A stretch of 64,000 nucleotides of DNA. Source: a virus. Positions within the stretch are counted from its first letter, which is position 1. Each line of letters begins with the position of its first letter. Position numbers and translations under genes: made by a program. The stretch covers positions 19,182 through 83,181 of IMG/VR virus record IMGVR_UViG_3300031521_000040. One strand, given 5' to 3'. The notes beneath the pieces are model-generated. The model was not told the origin of the DNA. It did not search any database and saw only the letters and a list, made by a program, of their open reading frames with translations. Shown piece after piece: positions 16,437 through 64,000 of the stretch.

Positions 16437-18983
16437 ATGGATCACAAGCCTACTCCTGAACAAGAAAGAATATTCCTTTTTATAAAGAAAAGAACTGAAA
16501 ACATTGTTATTAAAGCCTTTGCAGGCACTGGTAAAACTTCTACCATAGTTGAAGCAGTTAAGCTGCTGCCCAAAGACAAGCAAATCATGTTCTTAGCATT
16601 TAATAAGCACATCCAAGTCGAATTGCAGGAAAAGTTACCCAGCCACGTGCGCACTTACACTACTTATGGTTTAGGTACATCAGCCATTAAAAGGAAATAT
16701 GGTGATAGCATTCAATTTGATGAATTTAAAATAGATAAAATCATCCAGAAGAAAGCTAAGTCATGGGATTTAGACGATGAGTTTAAAACAGAAGAAGAAA
16801 TATTTGTTTATTTAAACAACATTAAGAAATTAGTTAACCTTTGCAGACTAACACTTACTTTAAAGCCCGAATACGTGCCTTACGTGGCAGAACGTTATGA
16901 AGTTAATATAAGCAAGCCAAATGATATTAAAAGGGTTCTAAAGGTCTTAAATGATGCAACGCTGGATAGGAAGTCTTTTGATTACACCGATATGATATAT
17001 TTACCAGCAGTTGATAACAGTATTTGGATGTTTCCACAAGATTATGTGTTTATTGATGAATGTTTGCCAGCTAAAACATATATTTCAACAATAGAGGGTA
17101 AAAGACAATTAGGTGCGCTTTATTATTTGAGCAAGAAAAATATTACATTACCTGATATTATTACTTATAATGAAAAAACCAGCCTTTTTGAAAACAAAAA
17201 AATTAATAAAATTTGGTGTACAGGGAAAAAAGATGTTTATTATGTTGTTTTAAATGGAAAAAGAAAATTAAAATCGACTGTTAATCATAGATTTTTAACA
17301 TTATCTGGCTGGAAAAGATTAGATGAACTAAAAATTGGTGATTCTGTAATTTCAAATTATAATAATCAACCATATCATGAAATATTCAATGAAACCCAAA
17401 AGAATATAGTAATCGGATCAAAGCTTGGTGATGGACATCTTGGAAAAATTTCTGATGACATATATAGACTAAGTGTAATACATGGCGAAAAGCAGAAAGA
17501 ATATTGTGAATGGAAAGCATCCTTTTTTGATTCTAAAATAAAAAATTTAAAAAATAACGGCTATGCGAAAAAGCAAGCATATTCCTTTACGACCAAAGGA
17601 TTTTATTTTAATATATGTGAAAGTGAAATCATCAATAACATGTCACTACAATCATTAGCGATATCTTGGATGGATGATGGTAATTTAGCAAAAAATGAAT
17701 TGAGTTCCACTCTTTACTCAACAGCTAAGAGTGTGAGATTGTCTCAATTACTTTCCGATAAAATTAATGGTCTTTGGAATATTTCATCAACAGTTAGAAA
17801 ATCTAAAAGCTCAACAACAAAAAACCCATATTATCGGTTATTGTTTAATAAAGAAAATACTCAAAAAATTTCAAGTCTTTTGGCGCAGTATATTCACCCA
17901 AGCATGGGGTATAAGTTATGTACTAATGATAGAAATAAATTTAATGAAACACTATGGCTTAATGAAAAAATAAATTTAGGATGTATGGTTGTTACATCTG
18001 AGCATAAATTTTATAAATATGAAAATACTTATGATATGTCCGTTGAAGATAATCACAATTTCATTGTAACATCCGAAAGTTACATAAATGGTGCTGCTGG
18101 AAATTTTGGAATAATAACACATAACTGTCAAGACCTTAACAGATGTCAGATTAAAATCATTGAGAAAATATTGAAAAGAGATAAACTAAGCGGAAAAATT
18201 ACTGGCAGACTGATTTCTGTTGGTGATTATTTTCAAGGAATTTATGGTTTCAATGCAGCGGATGATAAATCTTTCGAATGGTTTGAAAAATTCCCCAATA
18301 CTAAGGTATTGCCTTTGTCAGTATCATTCAGATGTGCTAAAAATGTTATACTAAAAGCTCAAGAGATCGTCCCTGATATTAAAGCATTAGATGATGCACC
18401 CGATGGACTTGTAAGGGATGGAAATGTGCTTACAGAGGCTGAAAGCGGTGATTTCGTTATATGTAGAACGACAATGCCATTGGTTAAGCTATTTTTCGAG
18501 TTTCTAACACAACATAAAAAAGCAGTTATTAAGGGTAGTGATATTGGCATTCAATTAATTGAATTAATAGGTAAAATCGATACGATTGATAAGCTTAAAA
18601 CATTTTGGGAAGGTGAGCTACATTCGTTTAAAAAAGAGTTGAAATCAACAGGCATATTGAATCCATCAGAGCATAGTGGATATTCAGCATTAGAAGATAA
18701 AGTAATGACATTGTTGTTTTTAGCTAAACTATCCACTAACATTACCGAATTAAAATTAAACATCAGAACTATTTTTACTGATGAAATTGTGGGAATATGC
18801 TTAAGTACAGTGCATAAGATCAAAGGACTTGAAGCTAATCGTGTTTTTATAGTAAGACCCGATTTACTGCCATTACCCAATGCTCATGGTTGGCAATCTA
18901 TACAAGAAAAGAACCTAGCCTACGTAGCGTATACGAGAGCTAAGCTAGAACTTATATTTGATAGAGAATGGAGCGATGAATAA
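16437..18983 (+). CDS. SF1 DNA helicase (UvrD-like) interrupted by an intein
   Basis: 848 residues before splicing, 493 after. Motif I is AGTGKT (29-34); motif II would be VFIDECQD once the intein is removed; motif III/IV GDYFQGIYGF; motif V/VI STVHKIKGLEA and AYVAYTRAK. This is a compact UvrD/PcrA-type superfamily 1A helicase, a 3'-5' DNA translocase used in phage replication or recombination. An intein occupies residues 209-563 exactly within the Walker B motif. It is followed without a gap by a small gene (overlap of 1 base). Confidence 0.9.
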   Translation: MDHKPTPEQERIFLFIKKRTENIVIKAFAGTGKTSTIVEAVKLLPKDKQIMFLAFNKHIQVELQEKLPSHVRTYTTYGLGTSAIKRKYGDSIQFDEFKIDKIIQKKAKSWDLDDEFKTEEEIFVYLNNIKKLVNLCRLTLTLKPEYVPYVAERYEVNISKPNDIKRVLKVLNDATLDRKSFDYTDMIYLPAVDNSIWMFPQDYVFIDECLPAKTYISTIEGKRQLGALYYLSKKNITLPDIITYNEKTSLFENKKINKIWCTGKKDVYYVVLNGKRKLKSTVNHRFLTLSGWKRLDELKIGDSVISNYNNQPYHEIFNETQKNIVIGSKLGDGHLGKISDDIYRLSVIHGEKQKEYCEWKASFFDSKIKNLKNNGYAKKQAYSFTTKGFYFNICESEIINNMSLQSLAISWMDDGNLAKNELSSTLYSTAKSVRLSQLLSDKINGLWNISSTVRKSKSSTTKNPYYRLLFNKENTQKISSLLAQYIHPSMGYKLCTNDRNKFNETLWLNEKINLGCMVVTSEHKFYKYENTYDMSVEDNHNFIVTSESYINGAAGNFGIITHNCQDLNRCQIKIIEKILKRDKLSGKITGRLISVGDYFQGIYGFNAADDKSFEWFEKFPNTKVLPLSVSFRCAKNVILKAQEIVPDIKALDDAPDGLVRDGNVLTEAESGDFVICRTTMPLVKLFFEFLTQHKKAVIKGSDIGIQLIELIGKIDTIDKLKTFWEGELHSFKKELKSTGILNPSEHSGYSALEDKVMTLLFLAKLSTNITELKLNIRTIFTDEIVGICLSTVHKIKGLEANRVFIVRPDLLPLPNAHGWQSIQEKNLAYVAYTRAKLELIFDREWSDE
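17061..18125 (+). mobile_element. Intein with LAGLIDADG endonuclease, in helicase motif II
   Basis: The intein starts at Cys209 (CLPAKTYISTIEG), has block B TVNHRFLT, LAGLIDADG helices IVIGSKLGDGHLG and LAISWMDDGN, block F TYDMSVEDNHNFIV, and ends IITHN at residue 563, followed by Cys564 as the +1 extein residue. 355 residues. Every splicing residue expected of a class 1 intein is present, so it should be active. Splicing restores the sequence DECQD of the ATPase site. Confidence 0.93.
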
Positions 18984-46839: not shown

Positions 46840-46870
46840 TTTGCATTTCTTGTAACTTTTACTACCTTTG
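46840..46870 (+). promoter_or_regulatory. Host-type promoter of tRNA operon 1
   Basis: TTTG at 46840-46843, 19-base spacer, TACCTTTG at 46863-46870. The surrounding 50 bases, including TGTAAC and GTTACGTATTTAG, are nearly identical to those at 50614-50657 before tRNA operon 2. Confidence 0.8.
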
Positions 46871-46927: not shown

Positions 46928-47002
46928 ATGAAAAATTTAAACAACATACAACAACAACCGCAACAGCATCCACAAATGTCTGAACGGGGAAGTTATGTTT
47001 AA
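46928..47002 (+). CDS. Leader peptide of tRNA operon 1 (Gln/Pro/His-rich)
   Basis: 24 codons beginning MKNLNNI; codons 8-16 read QQQPQQHPQ, then MSERGSYV and TAA. The three enriched amino acids are those of the tRNAs downstream (two with Pro anticodons, His, Gln). Codons 19-21 contain GAACGGGG (46982-46989), complementary to CCCTGTTC in the terminator 5' arm at 47033-47040. A ribosome stalled in the QPH tract would leave GAACGGGG free to pair and prevent termination; one reaching the stop codon would cover it. Expected role: sensing charged Gln/Pro/His tRNA. Confidence 0.75.
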   Translation: MKNLNNIQQQPQQHPQMSERGSYV

Positions 47003-47030
47003 ATTTATCATGAGTTTAAAGCATTATAGA

Positions 47031-47060
47031 AACCCTGTTCGAAAGTTCAGGGTTTTTTTT
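47031..47060 (+). terminator. Attenuator terminator of tRNA operon 1
   Basis: AACCCTG (47031-47037) pairs with CAGGGTT (47048-47054) and runs into eight T residues. It sits between the leader peptide and the tRNAs and has a competing partner inside the leader ORF. Confidence 0.85.
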
Positions 47061-47082: not shown

Positions 47083-47087
47083 GTATT

Positions 47088-47319
47088 GAAGAGGTGACTG
47101 AATGTTAAAGTTAATCAGGTGAAGGAGAGCCTTATGCTGGTAAAGTCAGTGTCTGCAACAAGACACTGGTGACTGCACCGAGGGGTGGGGTGAAATACCC
47201 ACACTGACCTAAAACGAGGCGTAGCACAAAGTATGGTTATTGTTCGGTGTACAACGATAATAATTTGAAATCGACCAACGCCTATCCTCACTCTGTGGGT
47301 TAAAGTCCCACCCTCTTCA
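47088..47319 (+). ncRNA. 232-base structured RNA with tRNA-like ends
   Basis: GAAGAGG at 47088-47094 pairs with CCTCTTC at 47312-47318 next to a T-arm-like hairpin GTGGG-TTAAAGT-CCCAC (47295-47311) and a discriminator A. Between them lie strong hairpins, such as CAGTGTCT/AGACACTG (47147-47168) and GTGGG/CCCAC (47185-47202), and a long-range GAGGCGT/ACGCC pairing. No normal anticodon arm is visible. It may be a tRNA with a large insertion or intron, or a tRNA-like regulator; tmRNA is unlikely because no tag frame is evident. Confidence 0.55.
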
Positions 47320-47325
47320 AAATAT

Positions 47326-47415
47326 CTAGGCGTAGGTCTGTAGTTGGTAGCAGTCCTGTCTTGGAAGCAGGTAGGGTAAAACCTCTCGTCAGTTCGAATC
47401 TGACCGCTTAGACCA
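47326..47415 (+). tRNA. tRNA-Pro-like (TGG), irregular, with encoded CCA
   Basis: Acceptor CTAGGCG/CGCTTAG, A73 and encoded CCA. Anticodon stem CCTGT/GCAGG with loop CTTGGAA gives anticodon TGG. It has an enlarged variable region and three extra bases before the D stem, and A37 rather than the G37 usual for tRNA-Pro. Identity uncertain. Confidence 0.55.
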
Positions 47416-47423
47416 ATTAATAT

Positions 47424-47495
47424 AGAGTAGTAGCGCAGTGGTAGCGTACATGGTTTGGGACCATGTGGTCGTGGGTTCGAGTCCCACTTACTCTA
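47424..47495 (+). tRNA. tRNA-Pro (TGG)
   Basis: Acceptor AGAGTAG/TTACTCT, D stem GCGC/GCGT, anticodon stem CATGG/CCATG with loop TTTGGGA (anticodon TGG, G37), T arm GTGGG-TTCGAGT-CCCAC. Confidence 0.9.
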
Positions 47496-47506
47496 CAAGA
47501 TCACAT

Positions 47507-47578
47507 GGGACGATTGGTGTATCGGTAGCACGGAAGTTTGTGAAGCTTTTAGAGTGGGTTCAAACCCCACATCGCCCC
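47507..47578 (+). tRNA. tRNA-His (GTG)
   Basis: The extra G at position -1 (47507) faces C73, the hallmark of tRNA-His. D stem GTGT/GCAC, anticodon stem GAAGT/GCTTT with loop TTGTGAA (GTG), T arm GTGGG-TTCAAAC-CCCAC. One A-C mismatch in the acceptor. Confidence 0.88.
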
Positions 47579-47587
47579 CTAAATTAT

Positions 47588-47659
47588 TGTTGTATAATAC
47601 AATGGTTAGTATAACTGACTTTGAATCAGTTTATTGTGGTTCGAATCCACATACAACAA
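47588..47659 (+). tRNA. tRNA-Gln (TTG)
   Basis: Acceptor TGTTGTA/TACAACA, D stem ATAC/GTAT, anticodon stem ACTGA/TCAGT with loop CTTTGAA (TTG), T arm TGTGG-TTCGAAT-CCACA. Confidence 0.9.
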
Positions 47660-47710
47660 CAAAATATTGTTCGATTTTTTATAAAATGATTCGAACTTTC
47701 ATATGTTTTC

Positions 47711-47719
47711 AGTATTTAT
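47711..47719 (+). promoter_or_regulatory. Candidate late promoter motif AGTATTTAT
   Basis: Exact motif followed by GATAAAA, 10 bases before the HNH gene start at 47730. Confidence 0.6.
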
Positions 47720-47729
47720 GATAAAACAT

Positions 47730-48299
47730 ATGAAAGAAGAAATATTAAAGTTAAGATCAGAAGGTAAAAAATATTATGAAATACAAAAAGCGTTAAATTG
47801 TTCTAAATCAATTGTTTCGTATTATTGTGGCGTTGCTCAAAAAGACAAATCTCGGAAAAGACAAGCTGAAAATAGAATGAAATGCAACGAAACAACCATT
47901 ATATGTAAAACAACTAATTTCAAATATTGTAGAATTGATAAGTCGAAAAAACTAAGAATTTCATCAACTAGTTTTCAAAAAAGACCTAATAAAATTTATG
48001 AAAAAGATATTACATTAACATTTGATTGGAAGGATGTAATCGATAAATTTGGTGAGGATACTTTTTGTTATTTAAGTGGTGAAAAAATAAACCTTATTAA
48101 TGATAAAAATTATAATCTTGATCATATTGTACCAAAAACCAGAGGTGGCGAAAATAATTTAGAAAATTTAGGAATTCTACATGAAACAGTTAATAAAATG
48201 AAAGGAGCATTGTTGAATGAAGAATTATTTGAGTGGTGTATAAAAATATTGAAGCATAATGGATATGATGTAGTAAAGAATAAAATAATAAACGATTAA
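47730..48299 (+). CDS. HNH endonuclease with HTH domain
   Basis: 189 residues from the ATG at 47730, chosen because the late motif overlaps the nine upstream codons. N-terminal helix-turn-helix (EEILKLRSEGKKYYEIQKAL, then NCSKSIVSYYCGV), C-terminal HNH nuclease: CYLSGEKINL, YNLDHIVPKTRGGENNLEN and ILHETVNKMKGAL, with the catalytic His in LDHI and Asn in EN-LGILH. A typical free-standing mobile endonuclease placed at the end of tRNA operon 1. Confidence 0.85.
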   Translation: MKEEILKLRSEGKKYYEIQKALNCSKSIVSYYCGVAQKDKSRKRQAENRMKCNETTIICKTTNFKYCRIDKSKKLRISSTSFQKRPNKIYEKDITLTFDWKDVIDKFGEDTFCYLSGEKINLINDKNYNLDHIVPKTRGGENNLENLGILHETVNKMKGALLNEELFEWCIKILKHNGYDVVKNKIIND

Positions 48300-48309
48300 A
48301 TATAACAGC

Positions 48310-49128
48310 ATGTATTACATAGTCCAGAAGAACGTCTTTAGAGAAGAAAATTACGATAATTTAATATTGGCTTTAGATCGATTAAAACTATCATACGAAA
48401 TAGTTGATGTACTACCATTTATTGAAACATTCGAGTTTCATTGTAAAGACAAAAATGTGTTTCCTTTTGGGTCAACGAAAATGGCTAGACTGTCTAAGCT
48501 ATATGGCTGGACACCCGGTTCTCAATTGAATGATAATCATGATTATCAGGTGTATAAAAACTTTTATGGTGATAATTTATTGAATTACGATTCACTTATT
48601 TATAAATTCGATGATGAATTTTTTGTTGACAAACCCTTTTTCGCCAGACCAACTAAAGATAGTAAAGCGTTTACTGGTAAGGTATTCGACATGGAAACAT
48701 GGAGAAAATTTAGAAACACTGCCTTAATCAATATACTTGATAAAGATACTGAAATTCAGGTATCATTAGTTAAAGTTATTCAAAAAGAAATAAGATTCTG
48801 GATAGTAAAAGGAAAAATTGCAACTGCAAGTCAATATAAACTAGGAACTAGAGTAGTGCTTAGCGACACCGTAGATCAGCCAGCATATGATTTTTGTAAT
48901 AAAATGATTCAATTGTTTCAATTAAACGATGCATTTGTAATGGATTTGTGTTTGGTTAATGATGAATATAAGATCGTTGAGTGTGGGTGCATTAATTGTG
49001 CTGGTTTCTATCGAGCTGATCTACAGAAATTATTGGTTAAACTAGAAGAAGCATTCTCAAACGATTATTTTGATCGTTGTTATCCGTCATTTTGTAATCC
49101 CATGGATCAAAACTTCTTGCGTTTATAA
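48310..49128 (+). CDS. ATP-grasp domain protein
   Basis: 272 residues. The centre and C-terminus match the ATP-grasp ligase fold of the small phage type: KPFFARPTKDSKAFTGKVF (Lys and Gly-rich lid), VQVIQKEIRFWIVKGKIATASQY-like strand pair (here KVIQKEIRFWIVKG), then VMDLCLVNDEYKIVECGCIN with the acidic and Asn residues that bind ATP-Mg. Such enzymes join a carboxylate to an amine, often modifying peptides or proteins. It starts 10 bases after the HNH gene; substrate unknown. Confidence 0.75.
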   Translation: MYYIVQKNVFREENYDNLILALDRLKLSYEIVDVLPFIETFEFHCKDKNVFPFGSTKMARLSKLYGWTPGSQLNDNHDYQVYKNFYGDNLLNYDSLIYKFDDEFFVDKPFFARPTKDSKAFTGKVFDMETWRKFRNTALINILDKDTEIQVSLVKVIQKEIRFWIVKGKIATASQYKLGTRVVLSDTVDQPAYDFCNKMIQLFQLNDAFVMDLCLVNDEYKIVECGCINCAGFYRADLQKLLVKLEEAFSNDYFDRCYPSFCNPMDQNFLRL

Positions 49129-49408: not shown

Positions 49409-49873
49409 ATGCAGTACAATCTATATTTAGATGACTTCAGAATGCCATTGGATTCGTTCAATTATACTAACAATAAAATATATAATATTGTTAATTGGAA
49501 GGTTGTGCGTAATTATGATGAATTCGTTGAAGCGATTCTAACTAATGGATTGCCTGAACGAATTTCCTATGATCATGACTTATCATATGAAGATATCAAT
49601 AAAGAAACTGGCTTTACTGAAAAAACTGGCTTGGATTGTGCTAGGTGGCTTATAAACTACTGTATGGATAATAATTTAGATGTGCCAGTTGAAATTTATA
49701 TTCATAGTATGAATACCGTTGGTGCATTAAATATTAAATCATTATTTACTACCTATTATAAGGTATACCCAACCGATAACGACTTTTATATTAATGATGT
49801 CTATATTAAAAACGGATTCTATTCTTATAATTATAGTCGTGGCTTTAATATGTGGAATGAAGATATTTATTAA
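49409..49873 (+). CDS. Cyclic-phosphate processing receiver-domain protein
   Basis: 154 residues. LDDFRMP (7-13), WKVVRNYDEFVEAI, ISYDHDLSYED, TGLDCARWLINYC and IYIHSMNTVGALNI are the successive motifs of the cREC family, a receiver-like domain with His and Asp residues proposed, from comparative genomics, to process 2',3'-cyclic phosphate ends of broken RNA. Here it follows a tRNA operon, and the phage also has an Rnl1-like RNA ligase and a P-loop kinase. End-healing of cleaved tRNA is a reasonable hypothesis. The activity of this protein is unproven. Confidence 0.75.
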   Translation: MQYNLYLDDFRMPLDSFNYTNNKIYNIVNWKVVRNYDEFVEAILTNGLPERISYDHDLSYEDINKETGFTEKTGLDCARWLINYCMDNNLDVPVEIYIHSMNTVGALNIKSLFTTYYKVYPTDNDFYINDVYIKNGFYSYNYSRGFNMWNEDIY

Positions 49874-50560: not shown

Positions 50561-50613
50561 AACAATTGATATTTAATGAGTTAAAAATTATTATTAATTA
50601 TTTTTAAAAATAC

Positions 50614-50644
50614 TTTGCATTTCTTGTAACATTTTATACCTTTG
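50614..50644 (+). promoter_or_regulatory. Host-type promoter of tRNA operon 2
   Basis: TTTG at 50614-50617, 19-base spacer, TACCTTTG at 50637-50644, nearly identical to the operon 1 promoter including flanking GTAAC and GTTAC half-sites. Confidence 0.8.
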
Positions 50645-50724
50645 TTACGTATTTAGATATACAAACAACAATAAGTAATTATTGAAATTTATTAAAAACA
50701 ACGAATATTAAAAACAAAAACGAA

Positions 50725-50814
50725 ATGAAAAATTTACTCGAAACTTTATTAGTAGCAATGGTAGCCGACCTATTATGGTTGGATGCAGAGGATATGTTAT
50801 GTGATGTCGGGTAA
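50725..50814 (+). CDS. Leader peptide of tRNA operon 2 (Leu/Asp/Val/Ala/Glu/Trp-rich)
   Basis: 29 codons: MKNLLETLLVAMVADL, then LWLDAEDMLCDVG. Twenty-one residues are Leu (8), Asp (4), Val (3), Ala (3), Glu (2) or Trp (1), all of which have tRNA genes in the operon. The Leu codons used (TTA, CTA, TTG, CTC) correspond to the Leu-type anticodons seen downstream. The last codons hold GTCGGGT (50806-50812), complementary to ACCCGAC in the terminator 5' arm (50854-50860); CCGAC at 50765-50769 can pair with it instead. This is a complete 1:2, 2:3, 3:4 attenuator layout. Confidence 0.78.
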   Translation: MKNLLETLLVAMVADLLWLDAEDMLCDVG

Positions 50815-50853
50815 AGGAAATAATAATATTGTTCACCTTTCTTTTTATAAAAG

Positions 50854-50884
50854 ACCCGACTATTAAAACCAGTCGGGTTTTTTT
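50854..50884 (+). terminator. Attenuator terminator of tRNA operon 2
   Basis: ACCCGACT (50854-50861) pairs with AGTCGGGT (50871-50878) followed by a T run. The 5' arm has a second partner in the leader ORF at 50806-50812. Confidence 0.87.
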
Positions 50885-50928: not shown

Positions 50929-51008
50929 GGTCTTAGGGTCTGCTGGGCGTGGACGACACCCTGTCACGGTGTTCAATCAGGTCGATTCGAATTCGACTAG
51001 GACCGCCA
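50929..51008 (+). tRNA. tRNA-Asp (GTC)
   Basis: Acceptor GGTCTTA/TAGGACC, G73 and encoded CCA. Anticodon stem ACACC/GGTGT with loop CTGTCAC (GTC). T arm GTCGA-TTCGAAT-TCGAC; variable region slightly long. Confidence 0.85.
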
Positions 51009-51015
51009 TTAATAC

Positions 51016-51088
51016 AATGCTATAGTTCAATTGGCAGAATAACTGACTGTCTATCAGTGGGTTGCGGGTTCGAGTCCCGTTAGCATTG
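51016..51088 (+). tRNA. tRNA-Asp (GTC), second copy
   Basis: Acceptor AATGCTA/TAGCATT with G73, D stem GTTC/GAAT, anticodon stem ACTGA/TCAGT with loop CTGTCTA (GTC). Base 37 is T rather than a purine, which is unusual. Confidence 0.75.
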
Positions 51089-51148
51089 CACGGTTTACTG
51101 GAAGGTAAACTAATCAGAGTTATATAAAACGTGATAAATTAACTCTGA

Positions 51149-51218
51149 AGTCTCGTAGTTTAGAGTGGATATGAATGCCCTGAAGGGGTGGTTGCTGGTT
51201 CAACGCCAGTCGGGACTG
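51149..51218 (+). tRNA. tRNA-like gene with aberrant anticodon arm
   Basis: Acceptor AGTCTCG/CGGGACT, D stem GTTT/GAAT and T arm are good, but the anticodon arm folds as GCCC-TGAA-GGGG, without a seven-base loop. A Phe (GAA) reading is possible only with a weak stem. Possibly degenerate. Two hairpins precede it (51092-51147). Confidence 0.5.
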
Positions 51219-51228
51219 CTTTTAAAAT

Positions 51229-51303
51229 GTTGCCGTTGATAAATTGGCGAAATCACCTGACTTTCAATCAGGTCATATGTGGGTTCAAGTCCCATCGGCA
51301 ATA
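51229..51303 (+). tRNA. tRNA-Glu (TTC)
   Basis: Acceptor GTTGCCG/CGGCAAT, anticodon stem CCTGA/TCAGG with loop CTTTCAA (TTC), T loop TTCAAGT. Confidence 0.85.
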
Positions 51304-51309
51304 CAATAT

Positions 51310-51382
51310 GTCGCTATATGCTAATTGGCTAGGCAATAACACCTTCACTGTTATGGTGTGAGTTCGATCCTCACTAGCGATA
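51310..51382 (+). tRNA. tRNA-Glu-like (TTC) with C33
   Basis: Acceptor GTCGCTA/TAGCGAT, D stem TGCT/GGCA, anticodon stem TAACA/TGTTA with loop CCTTCAC: anticodon TTC but C instead of U at position 33. T arm GTGAG-TTCGATC-CTCAC. Confidence 0.75.
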
Positions 51383-51403
51383 CAATTTTTAAATAAAAAC
51401 GTT

Positions 51404-51541
51404 ATGAAACCATTAAAAAGAAAATTAACCTCAACTGAATTTAGTAAAAAGCAAGAGAACGCAGCTAATTACGGAAAATTCATTAAAACAACTTTAGTTG
51501 AAAGAGGTAAACAGAGAAACATTTTCAAAATTAAGAACTGA
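51404..51541 (+). CDS. Small basic protein inside tRNA operon 2
   Basis: 45 residues (MKPLKRKLTSTEFSKKQENA and a basic tail with IKTTLVERGKQRN), with about a quarter Lys/Arg. It lies between tRNA genes and is the only clean ORF in its gap. It may bind tRNA or be a leader-like element; no family recognised. Confidence 0.5.
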   Translation: MKPLKRKLTSTEFSKKQENAANYGKFIKTTLVERGKQRNIFKIKN

Positions 51542-51599
51542 TAACATATAAGCGGTTAATAGCCTGTGAGACATTAACGGCTAATATATTATTACTTAT

Positions 51600-51674
51600 G
51601 TTCCCTTAGCTTAGCTGGTTTAAAGCACTTCTCCTACAAAGAAGATACCGTTGGTTCAAATCCAACAGGGAACA
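51600..51674 (+). tRNA. tRNA-Val (TAC) with C33
   Basis: Textbook cloverleaf: acceptor GTTCCCT/AGGGAAC, D stem GCTT/AAGC, anticodon stem CTTCT/AGAAG, T arm GTTGG-TTCAAAT-CCAAC. The loop is CCTACAA, so anticodon TAC with C at position 33. Confidence 0.85.
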
Positions 51675-51741
51675 CAAAACATAACAATAAGTGTTTTCGC
51701 TTATATTCATATTTAATAAGCGAAAACACTTGTAAATATAT

Positions 51742-51823
51742 CCTTTTGTGGTGGAATTGGTATACACGGCAGCCCAAGAAACTGTTGTCGAAGGACATGC
51801 GAGTTCAAATCTCGCCAAGAGGA
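51742..51823 (+). tRNA. tRNA-Leu-like, type II, loop CCAAGAA
   Basis: Acceptor CCTTTTG/CAAGAGG, D stem GTGG/ACAC-like, long variable arm GTC-GAAG-GAC and T arm GCGAG-TTCAAAT-CTCGC define a Leu-type body. Counting from the D arm, the loop is CCAAGAA (anticodon AAG, C33) with a C31-A39 mismatch; CAA is an alternative reading. Confidence 0.7.
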
Positions 51824-51830
51824 CTGAGAT

Positions 51831-51944
51831 GTAATATGGTAATAAAGACGATGGCTGAGTGAGGCTATAGCGTGTCCAAAGCGCCAATAGACCACCAGAG
51901 GTTAACTCCCGATGCAATATCTGGCAACCTCACTCCCATATTAC
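51831..51944 (+). ncRNA. Three-way-junction RNA between tRNAs
   Basis: GTAATATGG (51831-51839) pairs with CCATATTAC (51936-51944); inside, GTGAGG (51859-51864) pairs with CCTCAC (51928-51933), enclosing two hairpins (CTAT/ATAG and CCAGA/TCTGG at 51894-51924). There is no T arm or acceptor of tRNA type. Unidentified 114-base structured RNA. Confidence 0.55.
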
Positions 51945-51959
51945 GGAAAGATGAATTAT

Positions 51960-51978
51960 CGTCTGGAGATTCCAGACG
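51960..51978. repeat. Intercistronic hairpin, copy 1
   Basis: CGTCTGGA-GAT-TCCAGACG, an almost perfect stem between RNAs; a second copy with the same stem lies at 53112-53128 and a related one at 53322-53342. Confidence 0.65.
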
Positions 51979-51989
51979 GAAAATAATAT

Positions 51990-52064
51990 GCTGGTGTAGC
52001 CGAATGGTAAATAGGCAACTGACTTAGGATCAGAAATTTGCGAGTTCGAGTCTCGCCACCAGTA
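51990..52064 (+). tRNA. tRNA-Leu (TAG)
   Basis: Acceptor GCTGGTG/CACCAGT, anticodon stem ACTGA/TCAGA-like with loop CTTAGGA (TAG, G37), T arm GCGAG-TTCGAGT-CTCGC. The variable region is short for tRNA-Leu. Confidence 0.82.
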
Positions 52065-52069
52065 CATTT

Positions 52070-52158
52070 GGGGATGTGATGAAATTGGTAGCACATGACA
52101 AGCTTAAACCTTGTTGCGAAATAATAGTAGCGTGTCAGTTCGAGTCTGACCTTCCCTA
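52070..52158 (+). tRNA. tRNA-Leu (TAA)
   Basis: Acceptor GGGGATG/CTTCCCT (one mismatch), anticodon stem ACAAG/CTTGT with loop CTTAAAC (TAA), long variable arm, T arm GTCAG-TTCGAGT-CTGAC. Confidence 0.87.
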
Positions 52159-52169
52159 CTGAAATACAT

Positions 52170-52241
52170 GGGGTGTGAAGTGTAATTGGCTGCACAAAAC
52201 ATTTGCAATGTTTTAGAGGGGTTCAAGTCCCACACGCTCCA
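52170..52241 (+). tRNA. tRNA-Ala (TGC)
   Basis: Acceptor GGGGTGT/ACGCTCC, anticodon stem AAACA/TGTTT with loop TTTGCAA (TGC), T loop TTCAAGT. Confidence 0.85.
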
Positions 52242-52282
52242 CAAGAAATTTTGAGTTCATTCAATCTTTTCTCCACAATTAA

Positions 52283-52305: not shown

Positions 52306-53097
52306 ATGAATATATGTAAAAATTGTGGAATTGAAATCGAATCACATCGTAAATATTGTTCATTGAGATGTAGAAATATATATGTTAATGAAAATCTTAG
52401 AAACTATAGTAAAAACGGTGATTCTATTAGCAAAAAATTTGTTGATGAATATAATTCACATCCAAAAAAATGTAAAGCATGTGATAAAATTATACCATAT
52501 GCGCTAAGGGAATGGGTTTTTTGTTCTAAAGAATGTAAAAAAACTGGATTAATTAAGTGGAATGAAAATCGAAAAGGCGAAAAGCGTAGTTTTAGTAAAG
52601 AAGGAATTGATAATATTATTATAGCAAGACGATTAAGATTAGATACTAGTTTTGAGGATTACATGTCTAATCCGAAACTTTGTAAAGAATGTGGTGAAAA
52701 ATTGCCGTTTGACCATAAAGCACGAATTTTCTGTAATATTAAATGTAAACGAATTTATGATAGTAAAAACATATCCGAATATCAAATTTATTATAAAAAT
52801 TGTCAGTTTAAATTTAATTTATCTAACTATCCAGAAGAATTTAATTTCGATATGATAAATGAATATGGTTGGTATAAAGCAAAAAATCATGGTGATAATT
52901 TAAATGGTATTAGTCGTGACCATATGATTTCAGTAAAATATGGTTATGAAAATAATATTAGCTCAGATATTATTTCTCACCCTGCTAATTGCAAACTAAT
53001 GCCACATAGTAGTAATTCAAAGAAACATAGTAACTGTTCGCTTAGCTTAGAAAACTTGCTACTAAAAATCAATGAATGGAATTTAAAATATTATTAG
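52306..53097 (+). CDS. HNH homing endonuclease with zinc fingers
   Basis: 263 residues. Three zinc-finger pairs (CKNCGIEI...YCSLRCR; CKACDKII...FCSKECK; CKECGEKL...FCNIKCK) precede an HNH nuclease with ISRDHMISVKYGYENN, then PANCKLMPHSSNSKKHS. It lies inside tRNA operon 2 between tRNA-Ala and the Trp-anticodon tRNA, with its own late motif, so it is expressed separately from the tRNAs. Mobile element. Confidence 0.83.
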   Translation: MNICKNCGIEIESHRKYCSLRCRNIYVNENLRNYSKNGDSISKKFVDEYNSHPKKCKACDKIIPYALREWVFCSKECKKTGLIKWNENRKGEKRSFSKEGIDNIIIARRLRLDTSFEDYMSNPKLCKECGEKLPFDHKARIFCNIKCKRIYDSKNISEYQIYYKNCQFKFNLSNYPEEFNFDMINEYGWYKAKNHGDNLNGISRDHMISVKYGYENNISSDIISHPANCKLMPHSSNSKKHSNCSLSLENLLLKINEWNLKYY

Positions 53098-53135: not shown

Positions 53136-53218
53136 ACGTAAGTTGCCGAGTGGTTAAAGGCGGTGGTCTCCAAAACTACTAGAGAAATCTTTCGTGGGTT
53201 CGAATCCTACCTTACGTG
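53136..53218 (+). tRNA. tRNA with Trp anticodon (CCA) and type II variable arm
   Basis: Acceptor ACGTAAG/CTTACGT with G73, D arm of Ser/Leu type (GCC...GGC), anticodon stem GTGGT/ACTAC with loop CTCCAAA (CCA), T arm with TTCGAAT. The 14-base variable arm is unexpected for tRNA-Trp. A Trp codon in the operon 2 leader supports the anticodon. Confidence 0.75.
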
Positions 53219-53240
53219 CTTGATAATCAACAAGTTATAT

Positions 53241-53314
53241 AGCCCTATATGCCAACTGGTAGAGTGAGGTGTTTCAAACGCATCGTAGTGAGAGTTCGAA
53301 TCTCTCTAGGGCTA
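53241..53314 (+). tRNA. tRNA-Leu-like (CAA), possible alternative TCA
   Basis: Acceptor AGCCCTA/TAGGGCT and T arm GAGAG-TTCGAAT-CTCTC are perfect; the D stem is poor. Stem GGTGT/GCATC with loop TTCAAAC gives CAA and a normal 5-base variable region. Moving one base gives loop TTTCAAA (TCA) with a weaker stem. Confidence 0.65.
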
Positions 53315-53321
53315 CATTTAG

Positions 53322-63489: not shown

Positions 63490-63582
63490 ATGAGAACATT
63501 TGGTAAAACATATCGTGGTTATAAATCTTATAAGAAAACTCTTATGGAATCGGGATTGCTTTGTCAAATAAAAACAACTTAA
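63490..63582 (+). CDS. Leader peptide of tRNA operon 3 (Lys/Thr/Tyr/Gly/Arg-rich)
   Basis: 30 codons: MRTFGKTYRGYKSYKKT, then LMESGLLCQIKTT. Lys occurs five times, Thr five, Tyr three, Gly three, Arg two and Ser two. The only identifiable tRNA of this operon within the window is Lys (TTT), in agreement. Codons for ESG contain GAATCGGG (63547-63554), complementary over 8 bases to CCCGATTC in the terminator 5' arm (63617-63624). The Lys/Thr/Tyr/Arg/Gly tract lies before that segment, as needed for stalling control. Confidence 0.72.
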   Translation: MRTFGKTYRGYKSYKKTLMESGLLCQIKTT

Positions 63583-63614
63583 AATAGTTTAATAGCATTT
63601 AGACATTATCAAAA

Positions 63615-63644
63615 ACCCCGATTCATTAGAGTCGGGGTTTTTTT
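63615..63644 (+). terminator. Attenuator terminator of tRNA operon 3
   Basis: ACCCCGA (63615-63621) pairs with TCGGGGT (63632-63638), then seven T residues; the 5' arm has a competing partner in the leader ORF. Confidence 0.85.
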
Positions 63645-63845: not shown

Positions 63846-63932
63846 GATATCTGTAGCTCAGTCAGGTAGAGCAGGAGACAGCGTTTGCGTATTAGAAACT
63901 CCGTGTCATAGGTTCAAATCCTATCTGGTGTC
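63846..63932 (+). tRNA. tRNA-like gene with interrupted anticodon loop
   Basis: D stem GCTC/GAGC, T arm ATAGG-TTCAAAT-CCTAT and acceptor ATATCTG/CTGGTGT (with a possible G-1:C73 pair) are normal. The anticodon stem GGAG/CTCC encloses 19-21 bases instead of 7, as if 12 bases, including GCGTTTGCG, had been inserted. Identity cannot be assigned. Confidence 0.6.
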
Positions 63933-63955: not shown

Positions 63956-64000
63956 GCCTTCGTAGCTCAATAGGTAGACGCACCTGACTTTTAATCAGGG
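63956..64000 (+). tRNA. tRNA-Lys (TTT), cut by the window end
   Basis: Acceptor 5' strand GCCTTCG, D arm GCTCAATAGGTAGACG and anticodon stem CCTGA/TCAGG with loop CTTTTAA (TTT). The T arm lies beyond the window. Confidence 0.85.

Follow-up and report, generated by a model that had tools for sequence, protein, structure and literature searches.

The window, i.e., the whole stretch of 64,000 nucleotides analysed here, comprises most of an 83,181-base IMG/VR virus fragment from a phage whose capsid, portal and terminase match T4-type Pfam families; its terminase shares ~26% identity with the terminase of immuto, a cultured Flavobacterium phage. Three tRNA operons are found in this window, all following one common order: a Bacteroidota-type promoter, a short leader ORF, an intrinsic terminator and a tRNA array. 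In all three, the terminator, composed of a GC-rich hairpin and a T run, lies between the leader ORF and the first tRNA gene, at most ~40 bases from the leader stop codon, and a segment from the 3' end of the leader can pair with the 5' arm of the terminator hairpin. Operon 1, which carries Pro, His and Gln tRNAs, is organized as follows:

46840-46870, + strand: promoter 1, of the Bacteroidota type TTTG-N19-TAnnTTTG (TTTGCATTTCTTGTAACTTTTACTACCTTTG)
46928-47002, + strand: leader ORF 1, MKNLNNIQQQPQQHPQMSERGSYV and stop, with in-frame 3n indels before the antiterminator and an excess of synonymous change in 14 relatives
46949-46975, + strand: sensor tract of leader 1, codons 8-16, QQQPQQHPQ
46982-46989, + strand: antiterminator segment GAACGGGG, which pairs with CCCTGTTC at 47033-47040
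47030-47060, + strand: intrinsic terminator 1 (arms 47030-47037 and 47048-47055, T run 47053-47060)
47086-47320, + strand: structured RNA (z = -4.1) with tRNA-like ends (GAAGAGG...CCTCTTCA; T-arm-like GTGGGTTAAAGTCCCAC)
47326-47415, + strand: tRNA-Pro(tgg), atypical (ARAGORN)
47424-47496, + strand: tRNA-Pro(tgg) (ARAGORN)
47508-47579, + strand: tRNA-His(gtg) (ARAGORN)
47588-47660, + strand: tRNA-Gln(ttg) (ARAGORN)

An earlier note had claimed that codons 8-16 of leader 1 contain only Gln, Pro and His and that the tRNAs encoded downstream are Pro, Pro, His and Gln, and no others. Both statements were borne out, the former by translation of the ORF at 46928-47002 and the latter by ARAGORN at 47326-47660; a tRNA scan could have refuted the claim by giving other identities, and it gave none. 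The first tRNA-Pro, with 90 nt, reached 27.8 bits, below the Rfam cut-off of 29 bits. It was also verified that the antiterminator segment starts six bases after the last Gln codon and that its complementary segment is located at 47033-47040, the GAACGGGG/CCCTGTTC pairing comprising 8 bp, including one G-U. As to the chance of such a tract, none of the 254,659 nine-codon windows taken from long ORFs of this phage and its relatives was composed exclusively of Pro, His and Gln. The structured RNA at 47086-47320 presents a strong fold with a large insert and is conserved at 89% in L095 and 61% in L139; no Rfam family matched it, and it is perhaps an intron-bearing or otherwise enlarged tRNA.

Operon 2 emerged when the leader 1 region was used as a DNA query against its own record and a second copy was returned at window positions 50582-50714. 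The 5' regions of the two operons are 80% identical, and this likeness stops approximately at the start of the leader ORFs. The features of operons 2 and 3 are the following:

50614-50644, + strand: promoter 2, of the same type as promoter 1
50725-50814, + strand: leader ORF 2, MKNLLETLLVAMVADLLWLDAEDMLCDVG and stop
50765-50769, + strand: possible protector CCGAC, complementary to the antiterminator
50806-50812, + strand: antiterminator segment GTCGGGT of operon 2, which pairs with 50854-50860
50851-50884, + strand: intrinsic terminator 2, ACCCGAC (50854-50860) with GTCGGGT (50872-50878), then a T run
50929-52242, + strand: tRNA array 2, with Asp, Asp, Glu, Glu, Val, Leu(aag), Leu(tag), Leu(taa) and Ala
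53136-53315, + strand: continuation of tRNA array 2, with Trp(cca) and Leu(caa)
63490-63582, + strand: leader ORF 3, MRTFGKTYRGYKSYKKTLMESGLLCQIKTT and stop, K/Y-rich, corresponding to class C {K,Y} in relatives
63547-63554, + strand: antiterminator segment 3, GAATCGGG, the same segment being present in class C leaders of relatives
63612-63644, + strand: intrinsic terminator 3, CCCCGATTC (63616-63624) with GAGTCGGGG (63629-63637), then a T run
63956-64000, + strand: tRNA-Lys, truncated at the end of the contig, anticodon read by eye as TTT

Leader 2 is made up of L, V, A, D, W, E and M, and 75% of its residues belong to the tRNA set of its operon (p = 2.5e-6 against the composition of the phage). 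Within array 2, a conserved degenerate tRNA-like sequence missed by standard scanners was observed at 51090-51229, with relatives in L104, L117 and L101. Leader 3 (MRTFGKTYRGYKSYKKTLMESG...) stands ahead of a tRNA-like gene and then of the Lys tRNA; this tRNA-like gene (63847-63932) scored 37.4 bits and has an anticodon loop of ~21 bases. When the window was scanned with Rfam at gathering thresholds, only tRNAs scored, with no T-box and no other regulatory family, and the curated amino-acid leader families, such as the His or Trp leaders, gave no match.

Other genes accompany these arrays. An HNH endonuclease gene (47703-48299) and a treble-clef-like gene (52306-53097) are located inside or directly after them, as mobile genes in phage tRNA regions typically are. 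Beside the arrays are also found an R2K ATP-grasp gene (48310-49128), possibly involved in peptide ligation, and a cREC domain gene (49409-49873), possibly involved in RNA end repair, cREC domains being predicted to process the cyclic phosphate ends left by RNA cleavage (PMC7824862). Elsewhere in the window, a helicase-like ORF (16437-18983) carries an apparent intein, identified by eye (CLPAKTYIST...IITHNC).

Since an exact IMG/VR scan for the promoter returned no match, relatives were sought via the terminase and ATP-grasp proteins; the IMG/VR relatives thus obtained were scanned for tRNAs and their arrays were then fetched. In relatives of the same clade, the leaders were recovered in the same order and on the same strand, and they fall into four classes, A {P,H,Q}, B {D,E,V,L,A,W,M}, C {K,Y} and D {C,I,S,F,G,N,T,R}, which combined account for all 20 amino acids; ISTISTSTFTTSSRNGNGIFCFGRN is an example of a class D leader. 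In G005, the Met tRNAs are located in operon D and the D leader has Met codons. A tblastn search of one class B leader against INPHARED gave no match, homology searches failing because the leaders are too short. Leader substitutions lean to third positions and are synonymous in excess (N/S 0.99-1.94 versus 3.6-4.8 expected), and, L119 with its frame change excepted, the indels located before the antiterminator keep the reading frame; as to translation, this evidence is only indirect. In class B, the order and length of the leaders vary while their composition is kept. Of 47 leaders, 39 have a TTTG-N17-21-TAnnTTTG promoter in the 250 nt preceding them, the corresponding proportion among random 270-nt windows being 2.2%; this Bacteroidota-like form points to a predicted transcription by the host RNA polymerase of Bacteroidota, no cultured host being known.

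More distant relatives, obtained with an ATP-grasp alignment, divide the amino acids in other ways. In G031, the leader LVLSLCLCLLVV precedes Cys, Val and Leu tRNAs and the leader IFDFAAFAFFAEEDD precedes Phe, Glu, Asp and Ala tRNAs; in G033, AYTYYQPKTQGGKTP precedes Pro, Gln, Tyr, Thr and Gly; in G026, TPAPAVAFRRGTGTGTGT precedes Arg, Thr, Val, Ala, Gly and Pro; and the G036/G037 leaders LISISTTITSSSTT precede Ile/Thr and Thr/Ser tRNAs. Leaders were also detected in published huge phages of 462-735 kb, unannotated megaphages reached via the ATP-grasp gene or a tRNA match, and there too the amino acids are divided differently and the leaders follow. LR756501 (735 kb) has five leaders, whose operons jointly cover 20 amino acids; LR756502 (642 kb) has seven, one of them being FQQQQQQQ ahead of four Gln tRNAs; and in LR745206 (635 kb) the Gln tRNAs share one operon with Pro and Asp, the leader being NPQPQDQDP. 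In LR756504 (636 kb), leaders precede {Arg, Ile, Met}, {Glu, Ala, Ile, Val, Gly}, {Tyr, Gln, Lys} and {Leu, Ser, Cys}, with IAIVEIAVIGGAEEGV ahead of the Glu, Ala, Ile, Val and Gly tRNAs and LSLCLSLSLSL ahead of Leu, Ser and Cys. That the leaders change along with the tRNA partition is the strongest evidence obtained.

In the same LR756504.1, two attenuators in tandem were observed at 394000-408000 (L233), the first leader including Asp and preceding one Asp tRNA, and the second (K, Q, Y, P) preceding Tyr, Gln and Lys. Additionally, many of these phages, namely G001, G002, G004, G005, G015, G028, G033 and LR756500, carry a tRNA with a CTA anticodon (amber suppressor, called 'Pyl' by ARAGORN), which suggests TAG read-through or recoding. 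Immuto, the cultured Flavobacterium phage, carries three tRNAs, without a leader in the portion that was inspected, and no tRNAs were found near the ATP-grasp relatives of six bacterial contigs (Saprospiraceae, Aureivirga, Maribacter and Tenacibaculum). Several of the leader-bearing genomes had been published or discussed by Al-Shayeb et al. 2020 (PMC7162821) and in later megaphage work (PMC9723777), where complete huge-phage genomes were described with up to 67 tRNAs (PMC7162821, PMC9723777); the text of PMC7162821 does not mention leaders, terminators or attenuation.

Hand-picked pairs of leader and array were tested initially and were then superseded by a composition-blind rule, which requires a hairpin, a T run, a short ORF, a complementary segment and a downstream tRNA, ignoring amino acids; the terminator is, outside the window, a requirement of this search. 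The thresholds were fixed after the first relatives were known, and a nearly identical rule later yielded the huge-phage leaders. Among the first relatives, the rule gave 53 matches representing 47 distinct leaders, all of them true leaders except for one pick in the wrong frame (G005), and the huge phages contributed 16 further leaders, totalling 63 tested. The excess of residues belonging to a leader's own tRNA set was 0.243 for the 47 leaders, versus 0.005 +/- 0.025 when permuted, and 0.245 for the 63 leaders, versus 0.002 +/- 0.018, with none of 100,000 permutations reaching the observed value. When only the 16 leaders from huge phages were considered, the observed match was not reached in any of 200,000 permutations. 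In the opposite direction, every amino acid of the operon's tRNAs was present in 65 of 68 distinct leaders, a set that includes six LR756504 leaders from a slightly looser scan; the recall score was 0.987 for own sets and 0.620 for permuted ones, with a permuted maximum of 0.761. One of the three misses corresponds to the wrong frame chosen by the rule in G005, and the other two to CAT-anticodon tRNAs called Met, which we presume may be tRNA-Ile(CAU).

The leader counts do not represent independent trials, given the common descent of many leaders, with a single clade supplying most of those in classes A-D. A better measure is that leader composition tracks the downstream tRNA set over 37 distinct sets from several lineages. 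Not all leader residues belong to the tRNA set, the proportion being 0.29-0.41 overall in K/Y leaders, and some tRNAs, located in later stretches, lack a dedicated leader. As controls, six tRNA-rich phages outside the leader-bearing group, namely Caulobacter CcrBL9, Pseudomonas SL2, Aeromonas Ah1, Enterococcus EFGrKN, Pectobacterium POP15 and Pelagibacter Mosig, gave no match to the blind rule, nor did the arrays of two distant ATP-grasp relatives, G034 and G035.

Regarding the RNA switch, 46 of 47 leaders showed a better match between antiterminator and terminator than base-shuffled sequences did (p <= 0.05), in a test that is not fully independent because the matches had been partly selected on complementarity (>= 7 bp required). 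In class A, complementarity is kept in 14 leaders, with 96% of cells paired, and two of the 14 (the window and L119) show a compensatory double change from U-A to C-G, together with which the 3' arm of the terminator also changes. A mutually exclusive antiterminator next to the regulatory codons is supported by computed pairing and this one compensatory change, without probing.

The earlier note had supposed that a ribosome at the stop codon of leader 1 would cover the antiterminator segment, while one stalled early in the tract would leave it free. The latter part agrees with the folding calculations, in which an early stall leaves the antiterminator as the MFE structure (-20.9 versus -19.9 kcal/mol with the terminator forced); the margin is only 1 kcal/mol, and the terminator cannot compete before its 3' arm is made. 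The former part needs correction, since a ribosome at the stop covers the segment only partly; the terminator alone is then left, at -13.9 kcal/mol. In the absence of a ribosome, the MFE structure is the terminator (-29.5 versus -21.9 kcal/mol with the antiterminator forced), and for this reason the default state of leader 1 is not certain and could be set by kinetics. For operon 2, the terminator is still the MFE structure of the full-length RNA after an early stall, the antiterminator being favoured only until the 3' arm is made.

We abandoned the assumption that the antiterminator is covered in every case by a ribosome at the stop, the segment ending 10-28 nt upstream of the stop in most class C/D leaders. 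In classes other than A, as much as 40 nt can separate the segment from the stop downstream of it, and the ribosome would then sit between both pairing segments rather than on one of them. In class B relatives, ACTCGAC(A), which is complementary to the antiterminator, occurs earlier in the leader as a clear protector and would give the four-segment (1-2-3-4) layout of the trp attenuator. A protector was sought in all classes and was weak or absent outside class B, with a 5-bp CCCCA in some class A leaders.

The layout, the coding constraint, the complementarity and the correspondence between leaders and tRNA sets, all of them observed, make it very likely, in the absence of bench data, that each phage tRNA operon is under a ribosome-mediated transcription attenuator and that shortage of a cognate tRNA switches the operon on. 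Leader-peptide attenuation had been proposed from a single leader, and this proposal gained support from the recovery of the same layout elsewhere by the composition-blind rule. According to this model, RNA polymerase would start at the operon promoter and transcribe the short leader ORF, whose codons are those that the downstream-encoded tRNAs are predicted to read. When these tRNAs are plentiful, the ribosome would reach the leader stop codon and sit on, or between, the antiterminator segment and the 5' arm of the terminator, so that the terminator would form and transcription would end. When any of them is scarce, for instance because it was cleaved in the host, the ribosome would stall in the sensor tract, the antiterminator segment would pair with the 5' arm of the terminator and the polymerase would continue into the tRNA genes. 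Each operon would sense the shortage of its own products, the operons of one phage jointly covering most or all amino acids, and synthesis of the tRNAs is probably confined to conditions in which their scarcity stalls ribosomes. Translation, stalling, the rise in read-through on scarcity of cognate tRNA, i.e., the direction of the switch, and the cause of the shortage are inferred; there are no expression, ribosome or structure data, and transcription-translation coupling in Bacteroidota hosts has not been established.

The conservation of each class within the window's clade, with N/S below neutral, would also be expected if the leaders were small functional phage proteins merely standing ahead of tRNA arrays, the terminator being an ordinary gene end. 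However, across lineages the peptides share little sequence and yet match the tRNA set, class B leaders differ in order and length with constant composition, and the antiterminator is formed by the leader's 3' codons, which makes this explanation very improbable. A leader RNA sensing tRNA directly, in a T-box-like manner and without translation, would equally account for a tRNA-related output and a terminator/antiterminator switch. We consider it extremely improbable, given the Rfam scan of the window, in which neither a T-box nor any other regulatory family reached its gathering threshold, the many codons listed in an ORF under coding constraint with in-frame indels, and a leader of ~120 nt that could hardly hold separate specifier loops for eight amino acids.

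Codon-poor repeats could also lie ahead of tRNA arrays by chance, with terminators that only resemble attenuators: simple repeats are frequent in AT-rich phage DNA, and the ORFs of the window have 30 nine-residue windows with three or fewer residue types. However, the zero counts among the 254,659 windows and the 100,000 permutations, and the lack of matches in six other tRNA-rich phages, G034 and G035, reduce this possibility to a negligible one; chance is refuted by the permutation tests. It is harder to set aside the idea that the leaders sense host amino-acid starvation rather than tRNA loss, because classical attenuators respond to charged tRNA (PMC1183508) and starvation would stall the same ribosomes. 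Nevertheless, the operons encode tRNAs and not biosynthetic enzymes, starvation is not cured by more tRNA, and the grouping of amino acids tracks operon content instead of biosynthetic families, so this reading is considered unlikely, though it retains some weight. Attenuation in response to tRNA shortage remains the preferred reading.

The phage leaders would have in common with T-box riboswitches a terminator/antiterminator switch governed by tRNA charging. In T-boxes, uncharged tRNA is bound directly via a specifier loop, and the genes controlled are those of synthetases or biosynthesis, whereas the phage leaders contain an ORF under coding constraint and have no Rfam match. With the trp, his, leu and ilv attenuators (theory in PMC1183508) they share a leader ORF rich in regulatory codons, an intrinsic terminator and an alternative antiterminator pairing, and the class B leaders resemble the trp attenuator also in the additional protector segment. 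Unlike in amino-acid operons, the controlled product is the tRNA itself, so that the loop would close on tRNA supply; moreover, up to eight amino acids would be sensed per leader, and several leaders per phage divide the code under Bacteroidota-type promoters. The type of mechanism is classical, and its use on phage tRNA genes is undescribed in the searchable literature: neither regulated phage tRNA arrays nor phage tRNA operons with leader peptides or attenuation were found in the full texts that could be searched. As most subscription journals and preprints were outside this scope, a prior description cannot be excluded.

Host tRNA depletion during infection is documented (PMC10264068, PMC11555353); retron-Eco7, for instance, degrades tRNA-Tyr and PrrC targets tRNA-Lys (PMC11555353). 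The phage operons would have in common with anti-defence phage tRNAs (PMC11555353, PMC10264068, PARIS/AriB PMC12409363) the replacement of host tRNAs destroyed during infection, the reports on the latter describing strong promoters or cleavage-resistant tRNAs (PMC11555353, PMC10264068, PMC12409363). It could be tentatively proposed, as a possibility that falls somewhat short of even odds, that huge phages have a tRNA supply that regulates itself over the whole code, in which the attenuators divide the amino acids, sense damage from host tRNA-cleaving immunity and switch on only the operon with the destroyed tRNAs. If so, the {Lys,Tyr} operon would answer PrrC/PARIS-type (Lys) and retron-Eco7/Septu-type (Tyr) nucleases. 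The link from the leaders to anti-phage defence is an inference.

What phage tRNA genes are for has been a matter of debate for decades. Sensors of tRNA shortage are predicted by the replacement of depleted tRNA and not by constitutive codon supplementation, and the leaders would constitute a sequence-readable list of the tRNA shortages to which each phage answers, an idea testable with simple reporters. Additionally, the leaders can mark tRNA operons and help to identify tRNAs misread by scanners. The range of leader-peptide attenuation would thereby come to include tRNA genes and single leaders that sense as many as eight amino acids, and the splitting of the 20 amino acids into a few operons, performed differently in each lineage, would represent a natural experiment in regulatory design.
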